DNA of 45,153 nt from a virus. Below the pieces are notes generated by a model that had not been told where the DNA came from, searched no databases, and saw only the letters and a program-made list of their open reading frames with translations. Positions 25,364 to 41,397 of this stretch are shown piece after piece (the stretch's first letter is position 1; each line of letters begins with the position of its first letter). The position numbers and the translations under genes are program-made. The DNA is taken from positions 1 through 45,153 of the IMG/VR virus record IMGVR_UViG_3300037042_002796; one strand, 5' to 3'.

Positions 25364-25543
25364 ATGAAATTTATAGGAATTATGTTGATGTTTTTCCCTC
25401 TGCTGTTTGTCGGAACGATACTCGTGGAGGGAGGTATAATTTGGCTGGGGATGTTTATTCTTTACATAATAGCAACACTCTGTACGCTAGTAGCCCCTAT
25501 CGTGGGGGTACTATTGTACAGAATGGCAGATCATTTGAAATGA
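25364..25543 (+). CDS. Two-TM membrane protein (59 aa)
   Basis: MKFIGIMLMFFPLLFVGTIL is one membrane helix, and a longer one or two follow (WLGMFILYIIATLCTLVAPI, VGVLLY). GTAGGAGAGT precedes the start. It is the last plus-strand gene before the convergent minus-strand lysis island, and its end overlaps the ClpP-like gene end by 13 bp. It could be an antiholin or superinfection-exclusion protein, by analogy only. Confidence 0.5.
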   Translation: MKFIGIMLMFFPLLFVGTILVEGGIIWLGMFILYIIATLCTLVAPIVGVLLYRMADHLK

Positions 25544-26061
25544 CGGGCGTTACGCTCGGGGAGGGAGGGGTCATCGTGGTGAATGTACAGGTCCTCTCCT
25601 TTGAACATACGGTTTATCTCAGATTGAGATAAGAAGGGTTTACATAAACGATTGAATCTATTACGAAATACTTTTCTGTAGTTATTTATATACAGTTCAG
25701 TTTCACCCCCCTTGCCTTTCGACCCACCAGAATAATCATGAAACATGATGAACGAATCAGGCTCTATTGTGAGCTTGTCTCCACATACTGCGAGTATCGC
25801 ACCCATGCTGTAAGACGGATACTCAACTACCATGTGTACGGGGCAGGGTAATGCCATTAGTTGGTCAACAAGAAAGAATCCCACGGAGCAGTCGCCTCCT
25901 GGGCAATTAAGATGTACTACTACAGAATCGTTCTCAGTTACTTTCCCAAGTTCTTTGACTAAATCGTCATAGTCTTCAAAGCACTCGATAGCACCTCTGA
26001 TGAATATGTCGATGTCTTTGCTCACATGGGGGGATGTTCTGATTAGACATGCTTCACTCAT
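25531..26061 (-). CDS. ClpP-like serine protease (176 aa)
   Basis: The fold pattern is ClpP/crotonase. VVVHLNCPGGDCSVGFFLVDQL (48-69) corresponds to the oxyanion Gly loop. YSMGAILAVCGD (84-95) holds the nucleophile Ser85. SFIMFHDYSGG (103-113) holds the general base His108, and MFKGEDLYI gives Asp157 at the ClpP triad position. All three catalytic residues are present. The N-terminal loops for Clp ATPase docking look short. It lies 3' of the endolysin under the same promoter. It may process virion proteins (prohead protease), act in lysis, or pair with the phage or host ClpX. Confidence 0.8.
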   Translation of the reverse strand: MSEACLIRTSPHVSKDIDIFIRGAIECFEDYDDLVKELGKVTENDSVVVHLNCPGGDCSVGFFLVDQLMALPCPVHMVVEYPSYSMGAILAVCGDKLTIEPDSFIMFHDYSGGSKGKGGETELYINNYRKVFRNRFNRLCKPFLSQSEINRMFKGEDLYIHHDDPSLPERNARHFK

Positions 26062-30859: not shown

Positions 30860-31503
30860 AACACATACTAAAAACAGAATCAGACTGGTTAGCTATAAGG
30901 AAGAATTACATAACAGCTAGTGAAGCGGCAGTACTTGTGGGTGCTGACCCTTATTCCAGCCCAAAGGCTATTAAGGAGCCAGCAGCATTCACAGGCAACG
31001 CTTTTACATTGGTAGGCCAGCTATTAGAACCAGTAGTAGCCAACCTAACTAACATTGTTCTTGGGACTAAATTTGAAATTTATGAAACATCAGACGGTAC
31101 AAAAGAGTTCTATACGAACGGCCATTTTGGAGCAACTCCGGACGCACACCAAGATAGAAAAATTCTATTAGAATGTAAAACTACCCGACCGAAAACATTC
31201 ATTAAATACGGGGCGGTTCCACCAAGTAAATATATGATTCAGAATATTGTTCAACAAATGTGTGTAGACGATTTAGAAGCAGATTATGGGTACATATCTG
31301 TTATGAGTACAGACTTAACCCAACACACTTCAGAGATTAAATGGCCAATTTCGGTGTTCAAAATCTGGAAAGATGATTCTTTGTGTTCTATACTACAAGA
31401 GGAGGCGGAAAGGTTTAAAACGAAACCAACATTTCGAGTGAACTCTAAAGTCAAACAGAAGGTTAAGCTGTTGCTTGCCATGGGATGTGAGAGGATTATA
31501 TGA
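30856..31503 (+). CDS. YqaJ-type recombination exonuclease (215 aa)
   Basis: The pattern is that of lambda-exonuclease-like PD-(D/E)XK nucleases. DWLAIRKNYITASEAAVLVGADPY is at the N-terminus, GQLLEPVVANL gives a conserved Glu, and FGATPDAHQDRKILLECKTT gives the catalytic Asp-Glu-Lys set (about residues 94-112). A late VQQMC helix (about 133) fits too. It would process dsDNA ends to ssDNA for annealing with SSB-type protein. It overlaps its neighbours by 4 bp on both sides. Confidence 0.8.
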   Translation: MKHILKTESDWLAIRKNYITASEAAVLVGADPYSSPKAIKEPAAFTGNAFTLVGQLLEPVVANLTNIVLGTKFEIYETSDGTKEFYTNGHFGATPDAHQDRKILLECKTTRPKTFIKYGAVPPSKYMIQNIVQQMCVDDLEADYGYISVMSTDLTQHTSEIKWPISVFKIWKDDSLCSILQEEAERFKTKPTFRVNSKVKQKVKLLLAMGCERII

Positions 31504-32033
31504 GAAAAATGTTAATAGGAGCATTAGTGGGAAGTGTACTATTATTTGGATCAATAGGAGTTTACTATCAATATTTTACACAAGAAGCACAAGACAGAAA
31601 GATAAAGGAAATATATAATAAATTAATAGTAAATACAGGCCAGTCTCAAGATGCATTAAAGTTAGTAATTTCCGAAGAGTTGATAGACAATGCGTATAAT
31701 GACGGCAAAAAGATAGTCATATATAGAGGGCTAATAAATAATGCTGAATCTTGGGACGAGGTAGCTTTAGTATTAGGGCATGAGATAGCTCACGGGATGC
31801 TAGGACATCTGAGTAATTGGCCAGAAACTTCAACGGCAAGTGAGATATCCGTATTAGAAGCTAACGCGGATAAAATGGGAGCAGTATATATGATGAAAGC
31901 AGGATACGATGTGTGCAAAGGTAGAAACATATACAAAAGATGGAAAGAAGAATCAGGAAATGCATTAGGACAAGACCACCCGGAAAATAGCTATAGGTAT
32001 GATGAACTTAATATTAACTGTGGAGAAAAATAA
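31500..32033 (+). CDS. Membrane-anchored M48-like metallopeptidase (177 aa)
   Basis: An N-terminal membrane anchor (MLIGALVGSVLLFGSIGVYY, residues 4-23) precedes a catalytic domain with HEIAH (His94, Glu95, His98) and the downstream zinc ligand Glu120 in EANADKMG. The short length matches the minimal M48 (Ste24/HtpX/BepA-type) fold. BepA-like proteases act in the periplasm on envelope proteins. Orientation by the anchor suggests a periplasmic catalytic domain here. It overlaps the exonuclease stop by 4 bp. A membrane protease among replication genes is unusual. Confidence 0.8.
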   Translation: MRKMLIGALVGSVLLFGSIGVYYQYFTQEAQDRKIKEIYNKLIVNTGQSQDALKLVISEELIDNAYNDGKKIVIYRGLINNAESWDEVALVLGHEIAHGMLGHLSNWPETSTASEISVLEANADKMGAVYMMKAGYDVCKGRNIYKRWKEESGNALGQDHPENSYRYDELNINCGEK

Positions 32034-32263: not shown

Positions 32264-32610
32264 ATAAATGTCACTGCCCAATAAAGGGTAAACTAACTTG
32301 CAGGGACCAAATATTACAGGCACTAACAGAAGTAATAGACGACACTATGCAGGTGTTCGATTTTGGTGCTAAGAAGCACCCAGATGAGGGGGATACTCCA
32401 AATTTTTTATTACTTGATGGAAACAAATGCCAATTAGAAGTTAGGGGTAAGAGTATCCTAGGACATGCTGCAAAGTGCTATATGGATGTGGGGGCTAAAG
32501 ATGACGAGTCAGATTTACCACATTTGTTGCATTTAATCTCATCAGCAGCTATACTATATATAAGACATAAACGAGGCATTAAACATCCGGAGGACAAAAA
32601 TGAACTATGA
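32260..32610 (+). CDS. DUF5664-like dATP/dGTP diphosphohydrolase-type protein (116 aa)
   Basis: FGAKKHP near residues 31-37 and LGHAAKCYMDVGAKDDESDLPHLLHLISSAAIL (about 67-99) match the phage all-alpha family DUF5664, some members of which hydrolyse purine dNTPs. Metal ligands would be the Asp/Glu residues of DDESDLPHL. Together with the MazG-like protein next to it, it suggests control of the purine dNTP pool. It overlaps the neighbours by 4 and 11 bp. Confidence 0.6.
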   Translation: MNKCHCPIKGKLTCRDQILQALTEVIDDTMQVFDFGAKKHPDEGDTPNFLLLDGNKCQLEVRGKSILGHAAKCYMDVGAKDDESDLPHLLHLISSAAILYIRHKRGIKHPEDKNEL

Positions 32611-32866
32611 GTTAGAAGTAGAAGGACTGTTGAAGAATAAAGAAGACATTCACTTAGTTGCCGGACTAGCTGCAGAAGTGGGAGAAGTATGCTCAATTTT
32701 TCAGAAAGCTAGCTACAAGTCTCAACCACTAGATATTGAGCAACTAAGAGAGGAATTGGGAGACGTTTATTTTTACACGACTGCGTTAGCAAATAAATAT
32801 GGATTCTCTATGTCTGGCTTATTAGAATCTAATATAAAAAAGCTACACAGACGACATGGTAACTGA
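32600..32866 (+). CDS. MazG-like nucleotide pyrophosphohydrolase (88 aa)
   Basis: The motif GLAAEVGEVCSIFQKA (about 22-37) supplies the ExxE pair and LREELGDVYFYTTALA (about 49-64) the ExxD pair, the four metal ligands of the MazG fold. It would cleave NTPs to NMP and pyrophosphate, for instance unusual nucleotides or (p)ppGpp-related signals as proposed for other phage MazG proteins. It overlaps the preceding gene by 11 bp and the next by 11 bp. Confidence 0.75.
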   Translation: MNYELEVEGLLKNKEDIHLVAGLAAEVGEVCSIFQKASYKSQPLDIEQLREELGDVYFYTTALANKYGFSMSGLLESNIKKLHRRHGN

Positions 32867-33206
32867 CCAAGACGTCAATATTATTATGAACCTATCCTGC
32901 GGGGAAAAGCCAGAAAAAAGAATCCGAGAGTTTTTAAATGAGTTACTGATAAACAAAAGAGACAAAGAGTTAAGGATAGAGTTTTTTAATAAGACGTACA
33001 AAGCTTTCTTCTCTACATATTTTTCTAAATTTGCAGGGAGGTATAAAGAAGAGTGTATACAAGAAGCATACATACATTCTTTAGGAATGCTAGTAAATAA
33101 CTGTTCACTAGAAGCAGCTTTACAAGAAGGAATAAAGGCTGCAAATAAAATACATAGGTCTTTAAGGGGATATGATGAAATTACAACTGGCGGAATACAA
33201 TATTGA
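32856..33206 (+). CDS. Hypothetical protein (116 aa)
   Basis: This protein is probably all-helical and charged, with aromatic clusters (AFFSTYFSKFAGRYKEE) and no clear motif. It overlaps the PrkA-like gene by 35 bp, so expression is linked to that module. Family unknown. Confidence 0.5.
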   Translation: MVTDQDVNIIMNLSCGEKPEKRIREFLNELLINKRDKELRIEFFNKTYKAFFSTYFSKFAGRYKEECIQEAYIHSLGMLVNNCSLEAALQEGIKAANKIHRSLRGYDEITTGGIQY

Positions 33207-35079
33207 AAAGATGTCACTTGAAGAGTATCTAAAGTTAGCAAAAAAGGATTCTTCAGTGTACGATTCACCTGCCACCCGGATGTTAAAAGCAATTGGGGAA
33301 CCGGAGAAGATAGACACTTCTAAAAACCCCAAGCTTAGTAGAATATTTGGTAATCGAACTATCAGAAGATATAAAGAGTTCGAAGATTTTTATGGACTAG
33401 AAGACGTAGTAGCTAGGATAGTTTCATTCTTCCAACATGCTGCACAGAATCTAGAAGAGTCTAGGCAAATTCTCTATCTGCTCGGCCCAGTGGGTTCTGC
33501 AAAGAGTTCGCTTGTGGAGAGACTAAAGTCTCTTATGGAGAAGGCACCTATTTATATACTAGCAGACCATGAGGGCAATCCAAGCCCCATTAATGAGTCT
33601 CCTTTAAGCGTGTGTGGAGCGGACGTACTAAAAAGTGCAGGCCTGAACATTAATAAGAGCAACATAGTAATTCCTAGCCCGTGGGCGACTAAGAGATTGA
33701 AGGAGTACAAAGGTGATTTGTCACGATTTACAGTCATTAAAAGAATGCCTAGTCAGCTTGAACAAGTCGCAATCTCAAAAACTGAGCCAGGAGATGAGAA
33801 CAATCAGGATATCTCCGCACTTGTTGGGAAAGTTGACATTAGAAAGCTTGAACACTATAGCCAGAGTGACCCAGATGCATACAGTTATTGCGGGGGGCTG
33901 TGTCTATCTAATCAGGGAATGTTAGAGTTCGTTGAGATGTTTAAAGCTCCTATCAAGATGTTGCATCCGTTGTTGACAGCAACTCAAGAGAAGAACTACA
34001 AAGGCACTGAAGCTATATCAGCTATTCCGTTCCAAGGCGTAATCGTAGCACACAGCAATGAATCAGAATGGGATACTTTCAAGAACAATCGTAACAATGA
34101 AGCGTTTTTGGACAGGGTGTACATTGTAGAAGTACCATATTGCTTACAAGTAGATGAAGAGAAAAAGATTTATCAGAAGCTACTTAGTAGTAGTACGTTA
34201 AAAGATGCTCCTACAGCTCCATATACTCTTGAATTGTTAGCTCAGTTCAGTGTTCTAACTCGATTAGAAGAGCCAGAGAACTCAAGCGTTGTAACTAAGA
34301 TGAGAGTATATAACGGGGAGAACGTTAAAGAAAAAGACTCAAAAGCGAAAAGCTTCCAAGAATACAAAGACGGAGCTAGTGCCGATGAGGGGTTCAGCGG
34401 AGTATCCACTCGACTCGCATATAAAGTGCTTGCTGAGGTGTATAACTTCGATCACGACGAAATAGCAGCCGACCCAGTACATTTGTTATACGTACTAGAA
34501 AAGACTGTACTAAATAGTAGATTGCCACAGGAAACACAGACAGAGTACTTAGATTACATTAAAGAGTATTTGGCACCGTTTTACGCTCAGAAGGTAGGCC
34601 AAGACATTCAAACAGCATATCTTGACAGCTATGATGAATATGGACAATCTCTATTTGACAGATATATTGTATTCGCGGACCATTGGGTACAAGATAATGA
34701 CTATAGAGACGTTGACACAGGACAAATGTTCAATAGAGAGCTGTTGAACAAAGAGCTAGAGAAACTAGAAAAACCAGCAGAAATAGCTAACCCAAAGGAT
34801 TTTCGACACGAGGTGGTTAATTTTGCTCTTAGATATCAAGCTAGAAATGACGGCAAGAATCCAGCATGGACAGCGTATGAGAAACTAAGACGAGTTATTC
34901 AAGCTACTATGTTTTCTAAAACTCAAGACTTGCTTCCAGTAATCAGCTTTACAGGCAAGGGGAACAAAGAAGATGCCAGTAAGCATGAGGCGTTCGTTGC
35001 TAGGATGATAGAGTTAGGCTATACTGAAAGACAGGTGCGTCGTATAGTAGAATGGCACATGAGAGTTGTCAACTCGTAG
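33172..35079 (+). CDS. prkA: PrkA/YeaG-family AAA+ serine protein kinase (635 aa)
   Basis: This is a full-length homolog of bacterial PrkA/YeaG (about 640 aa). RIFGNRTIRRYKEFEDFYG leads into Walker A GPVGSAKSS (residues 105-113). The highly conserved KTEPGDENNQDISALVGKVD and EFVMFKAP-like/EFVEMFKAPIKMLHPLLTAT segments follow, then FLDRVYIVEVPYCL and the C-terminal kinase-like domain ending VRRIVEWHMRV. From memory, these segments are nearly the same as in E. coli YeaG. In bacteria it acts with YeaH and YcgB in nitrogen-starvation and stationary-phase response. It opens the trio with DUF444 and SpoVR. Confidence 0.92.
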   Translation: MMKLQLAEYNIEKMSLEEYLKLAKKDSSVYDSPATRMLKAIGEPEKIDTSKNPKLSRIFGNRTIRRYKEFEDFYGLEDVVARIVSFFQHAAQNLEESRQILYLLGPVGSAKSSLVERLKSLMEKAPIYILADHEGNPSPINESPLSVCGADVLKSAGLNINKSNIVIPSPWATKRLKEYKGDLSRFTVIKRMPSQLEQVAISKTEPGDENNQDISALVGKVDIRKLEHYSQSDPDAYSYCGGLCLSNQGMLEFVEMFKAPIKMLHPLLTATQEKNYKGTEAISAIPFQGVIVAHSNESEWDTFKNNRNNEAFLDRVYIVEVPYCLQVDEEKKIYQKLLSSSTLKDAPTAPYTLELLAQFSVLTRLEEPENSSVVTKMRVYNGENVKEKDSKAKSFQEYKDGASADEGFSGVSTRLAYKVLAEVYNFDHDEIAADPVHLLYVLEKTVLNSRLPQETQTEYLDYIKEYLAPFYAQKVGQDIQTAYLDSYDEYGQSLFDRYIVFADHWVQDNDYRDVDTGQMFNRELLNKELEKLEKPAEIANPKDFRHEVVNFALRYQARNDGKNPAWTAYEKLRRVIQATMFSKTQDLLPVISFTGKGNKEDASKHEAFVARMIELGYTERQVRRIVEWHMRVVNS

Positions 35080-35088
35080 GAGAATACC

Positions 35089-35271
35089 ATGCCAATTTAT
35101 GAGTACGTTTGTACAAATTGTGGACACAACCTGGAGGCGATTCAGAAATTTTCTGATGAGCCTCTGGTTAAATGCCCTGAGTGTAAAAAGAAATCTTTAG
35201 AAAAGCAGATGAGTACTGGAGGAATGTTCATTCTCAAGGGAGACGGGTTCTATAAAAGGGGTATAGAATGA
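35089..35271 (+). CDS. FmdB-type zinc ribbon protein (60 aa)
   Basis: MPIYEYVCTNCGHNLEAIQKF followed by VKCPECKKKSLEKQ gives two CxxC pairs (C8/C11 and C29/C32) of the FmdB regulatory zinc-ribbon family, then GGMFILKGDGFYKRG. It lies between the PrkA and DUF444 genes with a 4-bp overlap downstream. A GTAGGAGAATACC ribosome site precedes it. It may be a transcriptional or protein-protein adaptor of the module. Confidence 0.8.
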   Translation: MPIYEYVCTNCGHNLEAIQKFSDEPLVKCPECKKKSLEKQMSTGGMFILKGDGFYKRGIE

Positions 35272-36497
35272 CAATTACAGATAAGCGCAAAGCAGGGAAG
35301 AATAAATCAGTGGGGAACCGTCAAAAGTTCCTCAAGCGATATAAAGGACATATAAAGCGGTCAGTAGAAAAAATATCCTCTGATAAGGGTATAACTGATG
35401 TGCTTAAGGACCGGAAAGTTACTGTAGATAAAGACTCTATCCATGAACCTAATTTTAATTTTGACTTATCAACAGGTGAGCGCGACCTAGTATTCCCAGG
35501 TAACAAGAACAAATCCATCGGGGATAAAATTTATCGCCCAGAGGAAGGAGAAGGACAGGGAACAGAGGGAAGCGAAGAGGGGGAAGGCACAGATGACTTT
35601 ACATTCACTCTAACTAAGGAAGAGTTTTTAGACTTATACTTTAACGACATGTGTCTACCTGATTTTATTAAAGAGTCGCTGAAAGGTTCCACAAAGACTA
35701 AGTGGAAGAGAACCGGCTACTCTAAAGATGGTATACCTCCTAGACTTGATTTAGTTAAAACTCTTAAGCAAGGAATGGCCAGAAGAATAGCTACTAAAAA
35801 AGATTGTGAGCTCTGCAAAGGGAATGTACCAGAAGGAGGTTCATGTTGGGAATGTAGTGGGACAGGAATTAAACAACAACGCTACTTAGATGATATTGAC
35901 CTTAGATATAAACATTTTACTAAACAGCCTTTCCCTATTAGGCAAGCTACAATGATATGTCTAATGGACGTATCTGGGTCCATGGAAGAGTTTGAAAAAA
36001 CGTTGGCTAAAAAGTTCTTCTTGCTATTGTACTTATTTTTACACAAAGTATACAAAACAGTAGATGTCATCTTTGTTAGTCACACAGAGGCAGCGAAAGA
36101 AGTAACCGAACAGGAGTTTTTCCATGGACAGGAGACTGGAGGGACTATCGTTAGTTCTGGCTTGGAGTTGGTTAATAACATTATTGACAAAAGAATCGAC
36201 TTAGCTACTACTAATGTGTATATCTCTCAAGCTTCTGACGGAGACAACTGGGGCGGGGACGAAGAACTGAGTGCTACACTATTAGAGCAGTTGCTAGGTA
36301 AAGTCCAATACTTCGCGTACATACAAACAGAAGACCGACGAAGAAGGGACATGAAAATTAAGTATGAAGTTAAAGACTTGATGCATTTGTATCAAACCAT
36401 AGCTAGTTCACATAAGAACTTACAAGCTAGGCATGTGACGCAGGAATCCGATGTATATCCTGTGTTGAGAAGTTTATTTGAGGAGGATAAAAAATGA
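35268..36497 (+). CDS. yeaH: DUF444 / YeaH-family von Willebrand A protein (409 aa)
   Basis: The N-terminus (DKRKAGKNKSVGNRQKFLKRY) and an acidic Gly/Glu linker (residues 91-110) are as in YeaH. The vWA domain has the metal site MDVSGSMEEF (Asp234, Ser236, Ser238) and TGGTIVSSGLELV with ASDGDNWG. Instead of the helical insert I recall in YeaH, it has CELCKGNVPEGGSCWECSGTG, with Cys at 180, 183, 193 and 196, a DnaJ-like zinc knuckle. In bacteria DUF444 proteins partner PrkA. It follows the zinc-ribbon gene with a 4-bp overlap. Confidence 0.9.
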   Translation: MTITDKRKAGKNKSVGNRQKFLKRYKGHIKRSVEKISSDKGITDVLKDRKVTVDKDSIHEPNFNFDLSTGERDLVFPGNKNKSIGDKIYRPEEGEGQGTEGSEEGEGTDDFTFTLTKEEFLDLYFNDMCLPDFIKESLKGSTKTKWKRTGYSKDGIPPRLDLVKTLKQGMARRIATKKDCELCKGNVPEGGSCWECSGTGIKQQRYLDDIDLRYKHFTKQPFPIRQATMICLMDVSGSMEEFEKTLAKKFFLLLYLFLHKVYKTVDVIFVSHTEAAKEVTEQEFFHGQETGGTIVSSGLELVNNIIDKRIDLATTNVYISQASDGDNWGGDEELSATLLEQLLGKVQYFAYIQTEDRRRRDMKIKYEVKDLMHLYQTIASSHKNLQARHVTQESDVYPVLRSLFEEDKK

Positions 36498-36550
36498 TAA
36501 TTGGAATGTGGTTAACTTGGGTATCTATCTTAATGATGGCGTTTATGTAG
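36494..36550 (+). CDS. Putative 18-residue membrane peptide
   Basis: MIIGMWLTWVSILMMAFM starts on the DUF444 stop (ATGA) with GGAGG at the expected distance. Wholly hydrophobic. Real expression is uncertain. Confidence 0.3.
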   Translation: MIIGMWLTWVSILMMAFM

Positions 36551-36560
36551 GAGAAGTAAA

Positions 36561-36764
36561 ATGAGAACTGAACCGAATTTGAAAGACTGGGCAGAGGCAC
36601 TAATTTACGGGATTACTGGGGATGAAATATATAATTCAAAGTTGGTTAGTTGGGTAGAAGCCGAACTTAATGATATAGCGGATAAGTTCTATCAAATGGG
36701 TTTTGAGGATGGAGATACCACAGGCTGGTGGAAAGGCCAAGAAAAACTTAGTTACCCGCTATAG
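36561..36764 (+). CDS. Hypothetical protein (67 aa)
   Basis: MRTEPNLKDWAEALIYGITG... is acidic and helical with several Trp; no motif. GTAGGAGAAGTAAA precedes the start. It lies between the two halves of the PrkA/SpoVR block and may be a passenger. Confidence 0.55.
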   Translation: MRTEPNLKDWAEALIYGITGDEIYNSKLVSWVEAELNDIADKFYQMGFEDGDTTGWWKGQEKLSYPL

Positions 36765-36803
36765 GGTGTAAAAACAAGTTTAACCGCTGAAGGGGGTAAT
36801 ATC

Positions 36804-36977
36804 ATGAAGGTTTATAAATGCTTAGGCGGAAACACCATTTTCTACTCTAGTGTTCCTAAAGGTAGGATATTAGCAGAAATAGAAGTCGATGAAGAACTGT
36901 TAAGCGATGACTTGGAAGCTTCAGTATTGGCACAAGAGCGTAAGGACGATTTAGAAGCAATAGGAGTCTATCTATGA
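36804..36977 (+). CDS. Hypothetical protein (57 aa)
   Basis: MKVYKCLGGNTIFYSSVPKG... is a small beta-then-helix protein with an acidic C-terminal half. AAGGGGGTAATATC is the ribosome site. Its stop overlaps the next start by 4 bp. Unknown role. Confidence 0.55.
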   Translation: MKVYKCLGGNTIFYSSVPKGRILAEIEVDEELLSDDLEASVLAQERKDDLEAIGVYL

Positions 36978-37168
36978 ATAAGCAGATGGAGATATCCGGA
37001 GCTAAAAGGTTGGAACTAGTTAGTATTGATTGGGAAACTAATTGTGTAGATGATTTGACAAGGTATATGTTGAATTGTGAGTATAGGACAAATAACTATG
37101 CAGATATTCTACATAGAGTTCTAATAAATTTAGATACAAGAAGAAGACACTTGGAGACCTTTAAATGA
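36974..37168 (+). CDS. Hypothetical protein (64 aa)
   Basis: MNKQMEISGAKRLELVSIDW... has a strand followed by helices and ends HLETFK. It overlaps SpoVR by 4 bp, so its translation is coupled to that gene. No family recognised. Confidence 0.55.
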   Translation: MNKQMEISGAKRLELVSIDWETNCVDDLTRYMLNCEYRTNNYADILHRVLINLDTRRRHLETFK

Positions 37169-38634
37169 AAAAGCCTCTGTATAACGGCAGTGAATGGTCC
37201 ATGGAGTTGATTGAGACTTTATGGAAACACATTGAGGATATCGGGAGGAATACATTCGGGTTTGACCCATATGAAGCTCAGATTGAGATTATATCTAGTG
37301 AACAAATGTTGGATGCCTACTCTTCTGTAGCCATGCCGATACTTTATAATCACTGGTCATTTGGTAAAACATTTATACAGAATGAGAGACAATACCAGAA
37401 AGGCATGCAGGGACTCGCCTACGAGGTTGTAATCAACACCAACCCATGTATAGCCTATTTAATGGAAAACAATACAGCGACTCTCCAGGCCCTTGTATTG
37501 GCGCATGCCAGCGTAGGTCACAGCCACTTTTTTAAGAACAACTATTTATTCAAGGGGTGGACTGATGCAGACACTATTATTGATTATTTAAAGTTTGCTA
37601 AAAACTACATCAAATCCTGTGAGGAAAAGTATGGTGAATACGAAGTGGAGTACTTGCTAGATGCTTGCCATGCCTTACAGAATCATGGGGTGGACAAATA
37701 TAGAAAGTCTCCAAAACTATCTTCTGAGTTAGCACATAAGCGTAAGAAGGATTGGAACAACTATTTTGAGACCACTTTTAACGACTTGTGGAGAACCCTA
37801 CCGAAAAAAGATACGGAATCCGATTGTCTCGCAGAGAATACTATAAGAGAAGAGAACCTCTTATATTTTATCGAAAAGCACTCTCCAATATTAGAAGAAT
37901 GGCAACGAGAGATTGTTAGGATAGTTAGAAAGATTTCTCAGTATTTCTACCCACAAAGACAAACTCAATTGATGAATGAGGGGTTTGCCACGTTCACTCA
38001 TCATTTGATTATGACTGAGATGCACGACCAGGGACTATTAGACGATGGGGCGTATTTAGAGTTTCTTCAAAGCCACTCTAATGTTATAACCCAGCTAGAT
38101 TGGGAACACAAATATTACAGTGGAATTAACGTATACGCTCTAGGGTTTGCTATGTTTCAAGACATTAAACGTATATGTCAGAACCCCGACGAAGAAGACT
38201 TGAAGTGGTTTCCGGAAATATCAAATACAAATTGGTTGGAAACTATCAAGGACATAGCAGCTAATTACAGGGATGAGAGCTTTGTGTTACAGTTCTTAAG
38301 CCCCAAAATAGCGAGACAGTTTAAATTGTTTTCTGTCCATGTTCAACAAGGAGCGGACTACGTACAAGTTAATGCTACTCATGATGACGATTCTTTCTTG
38401 AGAGTCAGAAAAACATTAGCAGAACAGTATGACTTAAGTAGGGCTATTCCCCACATCGAAGTCGTTGATGTAGACTGGAAAGGGGATAGAACGTTATATT
38501 TAGAACACATAACAAAGAACAAACAAAGGCTTAATCACAGGGACGCTAGAGATACCCTTTCTTTTATACATGAGCTATGGGGATTCCCTTGTGACATTCA
38601 GTATATGGACTTAGAAGGTAACCCATTAGATTAG
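37165..38634 (+). CDS. spoVR: SpoVR / YcgB-family protein (489 aa)
   Basis: A near full-length SpoVR protein (YcgB is 510 aa). Conserved blocks are SSEQMLDAYSSVAMPILYNHWSFGK, GLAYEVVINTNPCIAYLMENN, AHASVGHSHFFKNNYLF, ENLLYFIEKHSPILEEWQRE, IVRKISQYFYPQRQTQLMNEGFATFTHH and GINVYALGFAMFQDIKRICQNP. The role is tied to sporulation cortex in Bacillus and to stress survival with YeaG/YeaH in enterobacteria; no enzyme activity is settled. It completes the PrkA-DUF444-SpoVR trio in the same order and strand as in bacteria. Confidence 0.92.
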   Translation: MKKPLYNGSEWSMELIETLWKHIEDIGRNTFGFDPYEAQIEIISSEQMLDAYSSVAMPILYNHWSFGKTFIQNERQYQKGMQGLAYEVVINTNPCIAYLMENNTATLQALVLAHASVGHSHFFKNNYLFKGWTDADTIIDYLKFAKNYIKSCEEKYGEYEVEYLLDACHALQNHGVDKYRKSPKLSSELAHKRKKDWNNYFETTFNDLWRTLPKKDTESDCLAENTIREENLLYFIEKHSPILEEWQREIVRIVRKISQYFYPQRQTQLMNEGFATFTHHLIMTEMHDQGLLDDGAYLEFLQSHSNVITQLDWEHKYYSGINVYALGFAMFQDIKRICQNPDEEDLKWFPEISNTNWLETIKDIAANYRDESFVLQFLSPKIARQFKLFSVHVQQGADYVQVNATHDDDSFLRVRKTLAEQYDLSRAIPHIEVVDVDWKGDRTLYLEHITKNKQRLNHRDARDTLSFIHELWGFPCDIQYMDLEGNPLD

Positions 38635-39784: not shown

Positions 39785-40552
39785 ATGTTAATGCGACACT
39801 TACTTATACCGGACGTGCAAGCTAAAGAGGGAGTACCCCTAGAACATTTAAATTGGATAGGTCAATTTATAGTTAGGAAAAAACCTAATGTCATTATCCA
39901 AATCGGTGACTTTGCGGATATGCCTAGCTTGTCTTCTTACGACAAGGGAACAAAAGAGTTTGAAGGGAAGAGGTACAAAAAGGATATCGCTGCTACTAAG
40001 TTAGCTATGGATACTCTATTGGGCCCTATTAGACAGTATAATGCTAGAATGAAGGAAACGAGGCATGCTCAATATAGACCTAGGTTGGTATTGACGCTGG
40101 GTAATCACGAGCAGCGAATTGAGCGAGCAGTTAATCAACAACCAGAGTTGGATGGGTTGATTAGCTACGACGATTTGCCGTATGAAGATTGGGAAGTGCA
40201 CGATTTCTTAAAACCTATCATTATAGACGGGATACTGTACTGTCACTATCTTAGTAACCCGATGTCAGGCAAGCCCTTCGCAGGTAGCGCATTAAACCAA
40301 CTAGCTAAAGCTCAACATAGCTTTTGTGTTGGACATAAGCAGACTCTAGATGTGGCCACTTACTTTTCACCTGCGGGGAAACAAACATGGGGAATAGTAG
40401 CGGGGGCATGTTACTTACATGATGAGGGGTACAAAGGATATCAAGGTAACCATCATTGGAGAGGAGTGATTATGCTCAATGACGTTAAAGAAGGAAACTT
40501 TGACCTTGGGGTTATCTCCCTAGAGTACTTAAAAAAGAGGTACGGAAAATGA
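39785..40552 (+). CDS. Calcineurin-like phosphoesterase (255 aa)
   Basis: It shows the metallophosphoesterase pattern. LIPDVQ is the first metal motif (Gln in place of the usual His), IIQIGDFADMP is the GDxxD motif, LGNHEQRI is the GNHE motif, YCHYLSN is a fifth His, and FCVGHKQT is the final GHxH variant (GHKQ). The two His-to-Gln changes reduce certainty about the metal set. Such enzymes are frequent in phages and may act on nucleotides or nucleic acid ends. An alternative start is ATG 39791. Confidence 0.75.
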   Translation: MLMRHLLIPDVQAKEGVPLEHLNWIGQFIVRKKPNVIIQIGDFADMPSLSSYDKGTKEFEGKRYKKDIAATKLAMDTLLGPIRQYNARMKETRHAQYRPRLVLTLGNHEQRIERAVNQQPELDGLISYDDLPYEDWEVHDFLKPIIIDGILYCHYLSNPMSGKPFAGSALNQLAKAQHSFCVGHKQTLDVATYFSPAGKQTWGIVAGACYLHDEGYKGYQGNHHWRGVIMLNDVKEGNFDLGVISLEYLKKRYGK

Positions 40553-41397
40553 AACTAATCAAGAAACTGGGGCTTATGCCCCCTAACGTCTTAACCCCAC
40601 ACAAATTGGCAAGCTACTTTGACTTCGCAGAGTGTAGCTCAATACATGTGGGCATTCAAGCTGTAGGCGGAGGAGAAGGTTGGTTAGGATATACTGCTGT
40701 AGGTACTGGGGAGTCCCCTATAGCTGTAGTAGGTAAAGGCATCACATTTGACTCAGGAGGTATCAGCGCTAAACCTTGTGGGGGGATGTGGAAAATGAAA
40801 TGCGATATGTTGGGGGCAGCTACTGCGTTAGCTCTTAAACATACTATCAACCGTAGAGTTGACCTGTATGGATGTATTGCTGAGAATACCCCTAGAACTA
40901 ATGGTATGCGCCCTAGTGACGTTCTTACATATTCAGATGGGACTAAAGTAGAGGTGGTTGATACAGACGCAGAGGGAAGGTTGGTATTGGCGGACGGTAT
41001 ATTAGAAGCGAAAAAACATAGTCCTGAATTGATAATCACGATAGCTACATTGACTGGAGCTGCTTTAGCAGTTGAGCCAGCTACTGTGTTGTTCGCGAAC
41101 AGCGAACAGTTAGCTAAGGACTTCGAACAATCCGCTGTGGAGTGTGGGGAGAAAGTAGTTCGGTTTCCTATCTACCAAGAACACAGAGATAATATAAAAG
41201 GTAAGAAGGGGGTTGCTGATATAAAGAATCTTGGAAGTATGCGAGCAGGTACTTGTACCGCTGCAGCTTTTCTAGAACATTTCGTTGGGAATACCCCTTG
41301 GATACATTTAGACATAGCTGGGAGTGCTACAGATAAGGAAGGCAACCCAACCGGAGCAATGTTAGCTACTTTGACGCATTTTATTAACAATCGGTAA
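40549..41397 (+). CDS. M17 leucyl aminopeptidase, catalytic domain only (282 aa)
   Basis: It matches the PepA catalytic domain. VVGKGITFDSGGISAKP (Lys63, Asp68, Lys75), MKCDMLGAA (Asp86) and VDTDAEGRLVLADG (Asp140, Glu142, Arg144) provide all zinc ligands and catalytic residues, followed by ATLTGAA and a C-terminal IAGSATDKEG. The N-terminal domain of PepA (about 170 residues, the DNA-binding and hexamer-supporting part) is missing. It is the last plus-strand gene before the terminator and overlaps the phosphoesterase by 4 bp. It could recycle amino acids from degraded host protein. Confidence 0.88.
   Translation: MKLIKKLGLMPPNVLTPHKLASYFDFAECSSIHVGIQAVGGGEGWLGYTAVGTGESPIAVVGKGITFDSGGISAKPCGGMWKMKCDMLGAATALALKHTINRRVDLYGCIAENTPRTNGMRPSDVLTYSDGTKVEVVDTDAEGRLVLADGILEAKKHSPELIITIATLTGAALAVEPATVLFANSEQLAKDFEQSAVECGEKVVRFPIYQEHRDNIKGKKGVADIKNLGSMRAGTCTAAAFLEHFVGNTPWIHLDIAGSATDKEGNPTGAMLATLTHFINNR

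Follow-up and report, generated by a model that had tools for sequence, protein, structure and literature searches.

The IMG/VR virus record IMGVR_UViG_3300037042_002796, analysed here over its whole length of 45,153 bases (the window), carries three complete genes of a bacterial stress operon, encoding PrkA (YeaG), DUF444 (YeaH), and SpoVR (YcgB). The trio is core to the window's clade of phages of about 44 to 47 kilobases (kb), in which it is strictly linked and under strong purifying selection. The reading favoured here, at a probability of roughly 50%, is that the phage supplies an active machine of AAA+, vWA, and SpoVR proteins that imposes a quiescent, stress-hardened state on the host during a slow infection.

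The three genes lie on the plus strand at positions 33172–38634, and each is complete, with a family match over essentially its whole length. The original prediction had described the block as a full trio in the strand and order of the bacterial operon, carried by a phage, and this description holds. The open reading frames (ORFs) for PrkA (33172–35079), DUF444 (35268–36497), and SpoVR (37165–38634) pass the Pfam and NCBIfam cut-offs and are linked on one strand in the bacterial order, which is also the order in 73 of 80 bacterial loci (within the flanks fetched). The same record encodes terminase, portal, head-closure, holin, and lysin genes. The trio takes up about 10% of this 45 kb genome and shares its strand with PolA and a RecE-like exonuclease, while the structural genes lie on the opposite strand. 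Its G+C content (0.38–0.40) is that of the flanking phage genes.

The conservation of the trio can be gauged from mean protein identities between the window and four near-complete relatives. No protein of the phage is better conserved than PrkA, whose mean is 81.2%; the putative major capsid protein reaches 77.2%, TerL 74.7%, SpoVR 70.9%, and DUF444 64.0%. With synonymous sites saturated, the ratio of nonsynonymous to synonymous rates (dN/dS) is mostly not computable, and the nonsynonymous and synonymous differences per site (pN and pS) are reported instead. For PrkA the pN is 0.08–0.13 per site, and for DUF444 and SpoVR it is at most about 0.2. The selection on the trio is strongly purifying, since there is little nonsynonymous change despite the saturated synonymous sites.

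One could suspect that host DNA was misjoined to a phage contig, or that the trio is a recent passenger, and the record of Enterobacter phage LAU1, which starts with yeaG-yeaH at one end, shows how a misjoin can look. For the window, the chance of this is negligible. A contig from another sample (L002) has PrkA and DUF444 proteins that are 98–100% identical to those of the window and the same upstream neighbours. About 10 further contigs (among L003–L014), with PrkA identities of 69–83%, keep the neighbourhood, namely PolA, a YqaJ exonuclease, and small conserved genes upstream and a metallophosphoesterase downstream. Ribosomal protein S9 is absent from all 48 carrier contigs, the base composition of the trio matches its flanks, and the PrkA and SpoVR trees place the window's copies in a distinct phage clade. 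An assembly artefact or host contamination is ruled out for the window by the independent contigs, which share its neighbours, and the host contaminant at an assembly joint that the original prediction had named as a possible refutation was not found. One contig of 44,161 bases has its first base shortly before DUF444 and its last within PrkA; such varying ends are expected if the contigs are whole genomes of about 44–47 kb opened at different points. In the LAU1 record itself (MN688132.1; L179:1-3308), yeaG-yeaH stand beside tail genes and look like prophage host flank left in the record.

The ancestry of the trio within phages is deep. In a carefully built tree of 43 PrkA proteins, those of the window's clade group on a single branch (100/100 support) that lies outside all the bacteria sampled, the Pseudomonadota among them. 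The SpoVR tree agrees, with the clade again on its own 100/100 branch outside the sampled bacterial groups. The closest bacterial PrkA is at most 64–65% identical to that of the window. A recent capture from a proteobacterial host is thus not supported, in view of the separate branches, the low bacterial identities, and the phage-like composition, and a recent host capture of any kind is rejected on the trees of both proteins and on composition. Given the limited bacterial sample, a donor closer than the sampled bacteria is possible. In a larger tree of 112 rows, the majority of viral PrkAs belong to several clades made up of viruses alone. Three others (L261, L287, and L294) group with bacterial sequences, and recent capture or contamination may account for them. 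For a single origin of all phage copies, the approximately unbiased (AU) test gave p values of 0.239 (PrkA) and 0.36 (SpoVR), which is compatible with one or several origins. The gene set has long been resident in phages, and host capture would be true only in a remote sense.

The trio is also found well beyond the window's clade. Profile scans of IMG/VR gave 264 relatives of PrkA and 168 of SpoVR, of which the best 80 of each were kept; some of these loci are near-copies of one virus, and the viral calls are predictions. Among the kept loci with enough flank, the order PrkA-DUF444-SpoVR is present in 61 of 62 anchored on PrkA and 64 of 64 anchored on SpoVR, and the possibility that the homologues are scattered through phages as unrelated singletons clearly fails on these counts. 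Terminase matches were seen on 23 of the 48 long carrier contigs, and 17 of these matches are strong; several of the contigs with a match measure 100–415 kb. The jumbo-sized contigs with strong terminase matches carry the trio as the window does. Closer to the window, PrkA occurs in 2 of 34 records of terminase relatives, both belonging to the window's own clade, and it is absent from the searched records of terminase relatives at 44% identity or less to the window. A genome found through its PrkA (G010) has the trio, with structural proteins 35–43% identical to those of the window. The contig L015 (58,065 bases), a putative virus, carries the trio close to a gene for an FtsH-like protease (M41 plus AAA); no phrog_2 terminase match was seen on it.

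More distant carriers include the Thermus phages TMA, phiLo, MN1, and Lalka8, which like the window have all three genes together and conserve the motif residues. However, their PrkA is only about 26% identical to that of the window, their gene order is DUF444-SpoVR-PrkA, and an aspartate stands at the position of PrkA K418 in all of them. The uncultured phages of more than 590 kb (LR745206, LR756502, LR756504, and LR756511) also have PrkA, DUF444, and SpoVR, but their genomes are about 10 times larger, their PrkAs fall in separate clades, and in LR756502 SpoVR is far from the other two genes. In the Ralstonia jumbo phage RsoM2USA, PrkA (ORF30) and SpoVR (ORF28) were annotated, with no mention of DUF444 and no treatment as a module (PMC8504454). 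In viromes of oxygen-minimum zones, spoVR was the most abundant sporulation-type viral gene, and manipulation of the host state was suggested; the annotation was of the single gene, read as sporulation-inducing, and PrkA was not mentioned (PMC8940887). The three protein families and their bacterial operon are already known, as are single occurrences of the trio genes in phages. The statement in the original prediction that no role for the trio is established in phages stands insofar as no paper presenting the complete trio as a module conserved among phages was found in the open-licence literature (which is not proof of absence), and it has to be qualified by the Thermus phages and RsoM2USA.

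The PrkA homologue (635 aa) consists of an AAA+ ATPase domain (Pfam AAA_PrkA, 1.8e-155 over 358 of 358 positions) and a PrkA C-terminal domain (1.1e-58), and it scores 1028 bits against an NCBIfam equivalog cut-off of 576. Weak matches of its profile are Lon and RavA, and one PrkA-family protein, on its own, has a structure in the PDB (9xip). The Walker A motif GPVGSAKSS spans residues 105–113 (33484–33510, plus strand). In an alignment of about 150 viral and more than 120 bacterial sequences, K111 and S112 of this motif are invariant in every PrkA (with one gapped row for K111), and E255 and R315 are also conserved across the viral copies. In Escherichia coli, a yeaG deletion is not complemented by the Walker A mutant K116A, AAA+ mutants of YeaG fail, and K426A abolishes YeaG function (PMC4664914). 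The residue K426, the proposed catalytic lysine of the kinase, corresponds to K418 of the window, which is kept in the window's clade. In the five most divergent phage PrkAs, this position (the assignment depends on the alignment) is an aspartate, which suggests that AAA+ activity, rather than kinase activity, is the common core. The PrkA of Bacillus anthracis is an AAA+ protein that is required for stress survival and sporulation and has no detectable kinase or protease activity (PMC13001217). Of the "AAA+ serine kinase" that PrkA had been called, the AAA+ part is borne out by Pfam and by the residues; the label "serine kinase" is doubtful, with the inactive B. anthracis protein to be set beside the loss of function in E. 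coli K426A.

The DUF444 homologue is a vWA domain protein of 409 aa (Pfam 1.3e-126; NCBIfam 448.7 bits against a cut-off of 396). In a fold search, its AlphaFold model matches folds of the vWA type with a metal ion-dependent adhesion site (MIDAS), Rea1-MIDAS among them. The MIDAS motif DVSGSM lies at residues 234–239 (35967–35984, plus strand), and D234, S236, S238, T293, and D324 are invariant across 273 aligned relatives. Where bacterial YeaH has a helical linker, the window has the cysteine pairs CELC...CWEC (residues 180–196; 35805–35855, plus strand). Among the viral DUF444 proteins scanned, the two CxxC pairs are found only in the window, L002, and L003, and the helical linker is absent from the rest of the clade. 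DUF444 is shorter in the window's clade (376–409 aa) than in bacteria and other phages (about 425) because this linker has been lost or, in those three, replaced by the CxxC pairs.

The SpoVR homologue (489 aa) matches SpoVR in Pfam at 1.6e-151, with a further match to the SpoVR_C domain, and reaches 724.7 bits against an NCBIfam cut-off of 679. An HAxxGH motif seen in the alignment (H114–H119; 37504–37521, plus strand) holds candidate metal ligands, and H114, G118, and H119 do not vary in any viral, bacterial, or Thermus-phage row without a gap. The second histidine of the motif, H119, corresponds to H127 of YcgB, which had become a tyrosine in E. coli after selection of a population under iron excess (PMC10044975). 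A candidate third ligand, E272, lies in an NEG motif (residues 271–273; 37975–37983, plus strand) and, gapped rows aside, is the same in every sequence, those of the Thermus phages among them. In relatives, the NEG motif is an intein target: it is interrupted in two unrelated phages, at insertion sites two residues apart. A relative of the window phage (L007:12999-15413) has an intein-like insert of about 290 aa at NEGWA^C, called an intein from its own motifs (a starting Cys, a TPDHR block, and an ending GN-Cys) with no profile match. The 636 kb phage LR756504 (L181:15471-17378) has a mini-intein at NEG^C, with TIGR01445 above its cut-off. Inteins favour active sites of conserved proteins. 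The HAxxGH motif and E272 are proposed as a candidate metal site because of the inteins at NEG, the mutation of YcgB H127 in excess iron, and the invariance of the residues. A gluzincin metallopeptidase was considered for SpoVR and rejected, as the protein has HAxxGH and NEG instead of HExxH plus a downstream E and has no fold match in the PDB. No paper on inteins in SpoVR was found in the open-licence literature.

In the favoured reading, PrkA would form an ATP-driven AAA+ ring, DUF444 would be its vWA/MIDAS adaptor that grips the targets, and SpoVR would join them as a third partner and would probably be an effector that depends on a metal. The phage trio would be expressed together with the replication genes, escaping host control by RpoS, NtrC, and guanosine penta- or tetraphosphate ((p)ppGpp). 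The host cell would then enter, or stay in, a quiescent, stress-hardened state that still permits phage replication in starved or slow-growing hosts. This timing, the formation of a complex, its activity, and its effect on the host, with the reset of host physiology that the original prediction put forward, are what we infer, and an active complex is favoured because of the data on YeaG and YeaH, Rhizobium etli, and B. anthracis, together with the vWA/MIDAS model of DUF444. YeaG and YeaH jointly act as a metabolic brake in nitrogen-starved E. coli, and an excess of YeaG lengthens the lag (PMC10954441). In R. etli, the trio forms a three-gene operon with prkA at its head, and no gene is induced more strongly by (p)ppGpp than prkA (PMC3188799). 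The yeaG-yeaH operon and ycgB of E. coli and the prkA operon of R. etli have the same three families and the same active-site residues as the window, and the R. etli operon also has the same gene order. The window differs in that its PrkA is only about 60–65% identical and belongs to a separate phage clade, its DUF444 is shorter, and small ORFs precede SpoVR. The AAA+ ring/vWA layout proposed for PrkA-DUF444 is that of the MoxR-vWA, RavA-ViaA, and Rea1-MIDAS machines, the likeness here being one of linkage and folds only. On this analysis, the trio is probably important for infecting stressed cells.

Several points weigh against this reading. E. coli without yeaG regains growth faster (PMC10954441), and a metabolic brake is not obviously of benefit to a lytic phage. 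The promoter and terminator scan gave no more than chance would, promoter-like sites included, so only the operon layout points to early expression. The SpoVR model (pLDDT, a predicted local confidence score, of about 70) has no solved-fold match in the PDB, and a sequence search of the PDB found nothing. Since no solved fold matches this low-confidence model, a catalytic role of SpoVR is a guess, and no enzyme class is claimed.

The main rival, which is unlikely on balance, holds that the trio is not a dormancy lever and that the phage instead uses it directly, as a machine for protein remodelling or proteolysis, in host-protein turnover, amino-acid salvage, or assembly quality control. PrkA would unfold proteins, DUF444 would select them, and SpoVR or nearby peptidases (M17, M48, or ClpP-like) would process them. 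Genes for all three peptidase types are indeed present in the same phage, with M17 close behind SpoVR in G003 and G006, and FtsH is near the trio in L015, but the peptidase neighbours are not conserved across carriers, and SpoVR itself lacks HExxH and has no fold match to a peptidase. An earlier report of Bacillus subtilis PrkA as an ATP-dependent protease (as cited in PMC13001217) is set against the carefully purified B. anthracis protein, which had no protease activity (PMC13001217).

The faster growth recovery of E. coli upon loss of yeaG (PMC10954441) would suit a phage, and the copy it carries could then serve as a decoy, or as a dominant-negative version, blocking the PrkA system of the host and lifting the metabolic brake. 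The divergence of the phage sequences could permit mixed, poisoned complexes. This explanation is improbable, however, given that the tested active-site residues are intact in all three proteins across the viral copies and that 61 of 62 loci retain all three genes, not just the oligomerising one. Least probable of these is a system for superinfection exclusion or inter-phage defence. The genes stand apart from the structural block, and an AAA+ plus vWA architecture resembles some conflict systems. Yet no PADLOC model matches PrkA, DUF444, or SpoVR, the trio genes pass the equivalog cut-offs of bacterial stress families, and no other protein of the phage evolves as slowly as PrkA, which is not typical of defence genes.

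Around and within the trio are genes that are not part of its core. The zinc-ribbon gene that had been noticed inside the block was found at 35089–35271 (plus strand) and encodes an FmdB-type protein of 60 aa (Zn_ribbon_8, 3.1e-18; TIGR02605). Only the window, L002, and L003/G001 have it between PrkA and DUF444; in G005, G006, and G010 it is downstream of SpoVR or far off, and in G003 no copy was found. With its position and presence varying among relatives, it is rejected as a core part and is considered accessory. Two small ORFs without a family, both on the plus strand, precede SpoVR: one of 67 aa (36561–36764), an insertion specific to close relatives, and one of 64 aa (36974–37168) that overlaps the SpoVR start. 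Small ORFs likewise intervene in the window's nearest relatives, whereas DUF444 directly adjoins SpoVR in L007, L009, L011, L015, and L016. Upstream of the trio is a MazG-like nucleotide pyrophosphohydrolase (32600–32866, plus strand; Pfam MazG 3.9e-10), a gene of the context and not of the core, which was not found in the four compared relatives G001, G003, G005, and G006. The MazG protein of E. coli is linked to (p)ppGpp, and the trio of R. etli is induced by it. Downstream, a metallophosphoesterase (39785–40552, plus strand; phrog_221 1.6e-60) is conserved in the clade and is 69–75% identical in the same four relatives. It is followed by the catalytic domain of an M17 leucine aminopeptidase (40549–41397, plus strand; Pfam 1.9e-74) that lacks the usual N-terminal domain. 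Elsewhere in the window are a ClpP-like protease adjoining the lysin (25531–26061) and a protein (31500–32033) that combines an M48 peptidase domain with a hydrophobic segment at its N-terminus. An Rfam scan for RNA elements gave no match.

Among bacteria, this stress module is widely shared, and no biochemical function is known for it. The strict conservation in phages, with PrkA steadier than the capsid, suggests that the machine works as a self-contained unit. The inteins in one SpoVR motif of two unrelated phages mark a likely active site for which no characterisation was found, and phages with cultured hosts (Thermus and Ralstonia) offer an outside handle on the joint function of the three genes. 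Tentatively, the trio may be seen as a widespread, independently evolving phage machine with an AAA+ part, a vWA part, and a metal site, which has its own lineages in place of recently borrowed host genes and which many phages, jumbo phages included, would need in slow-growing cells. The trio also gives a concrete genetic footing to the question of how starved cells may be infected by phages.

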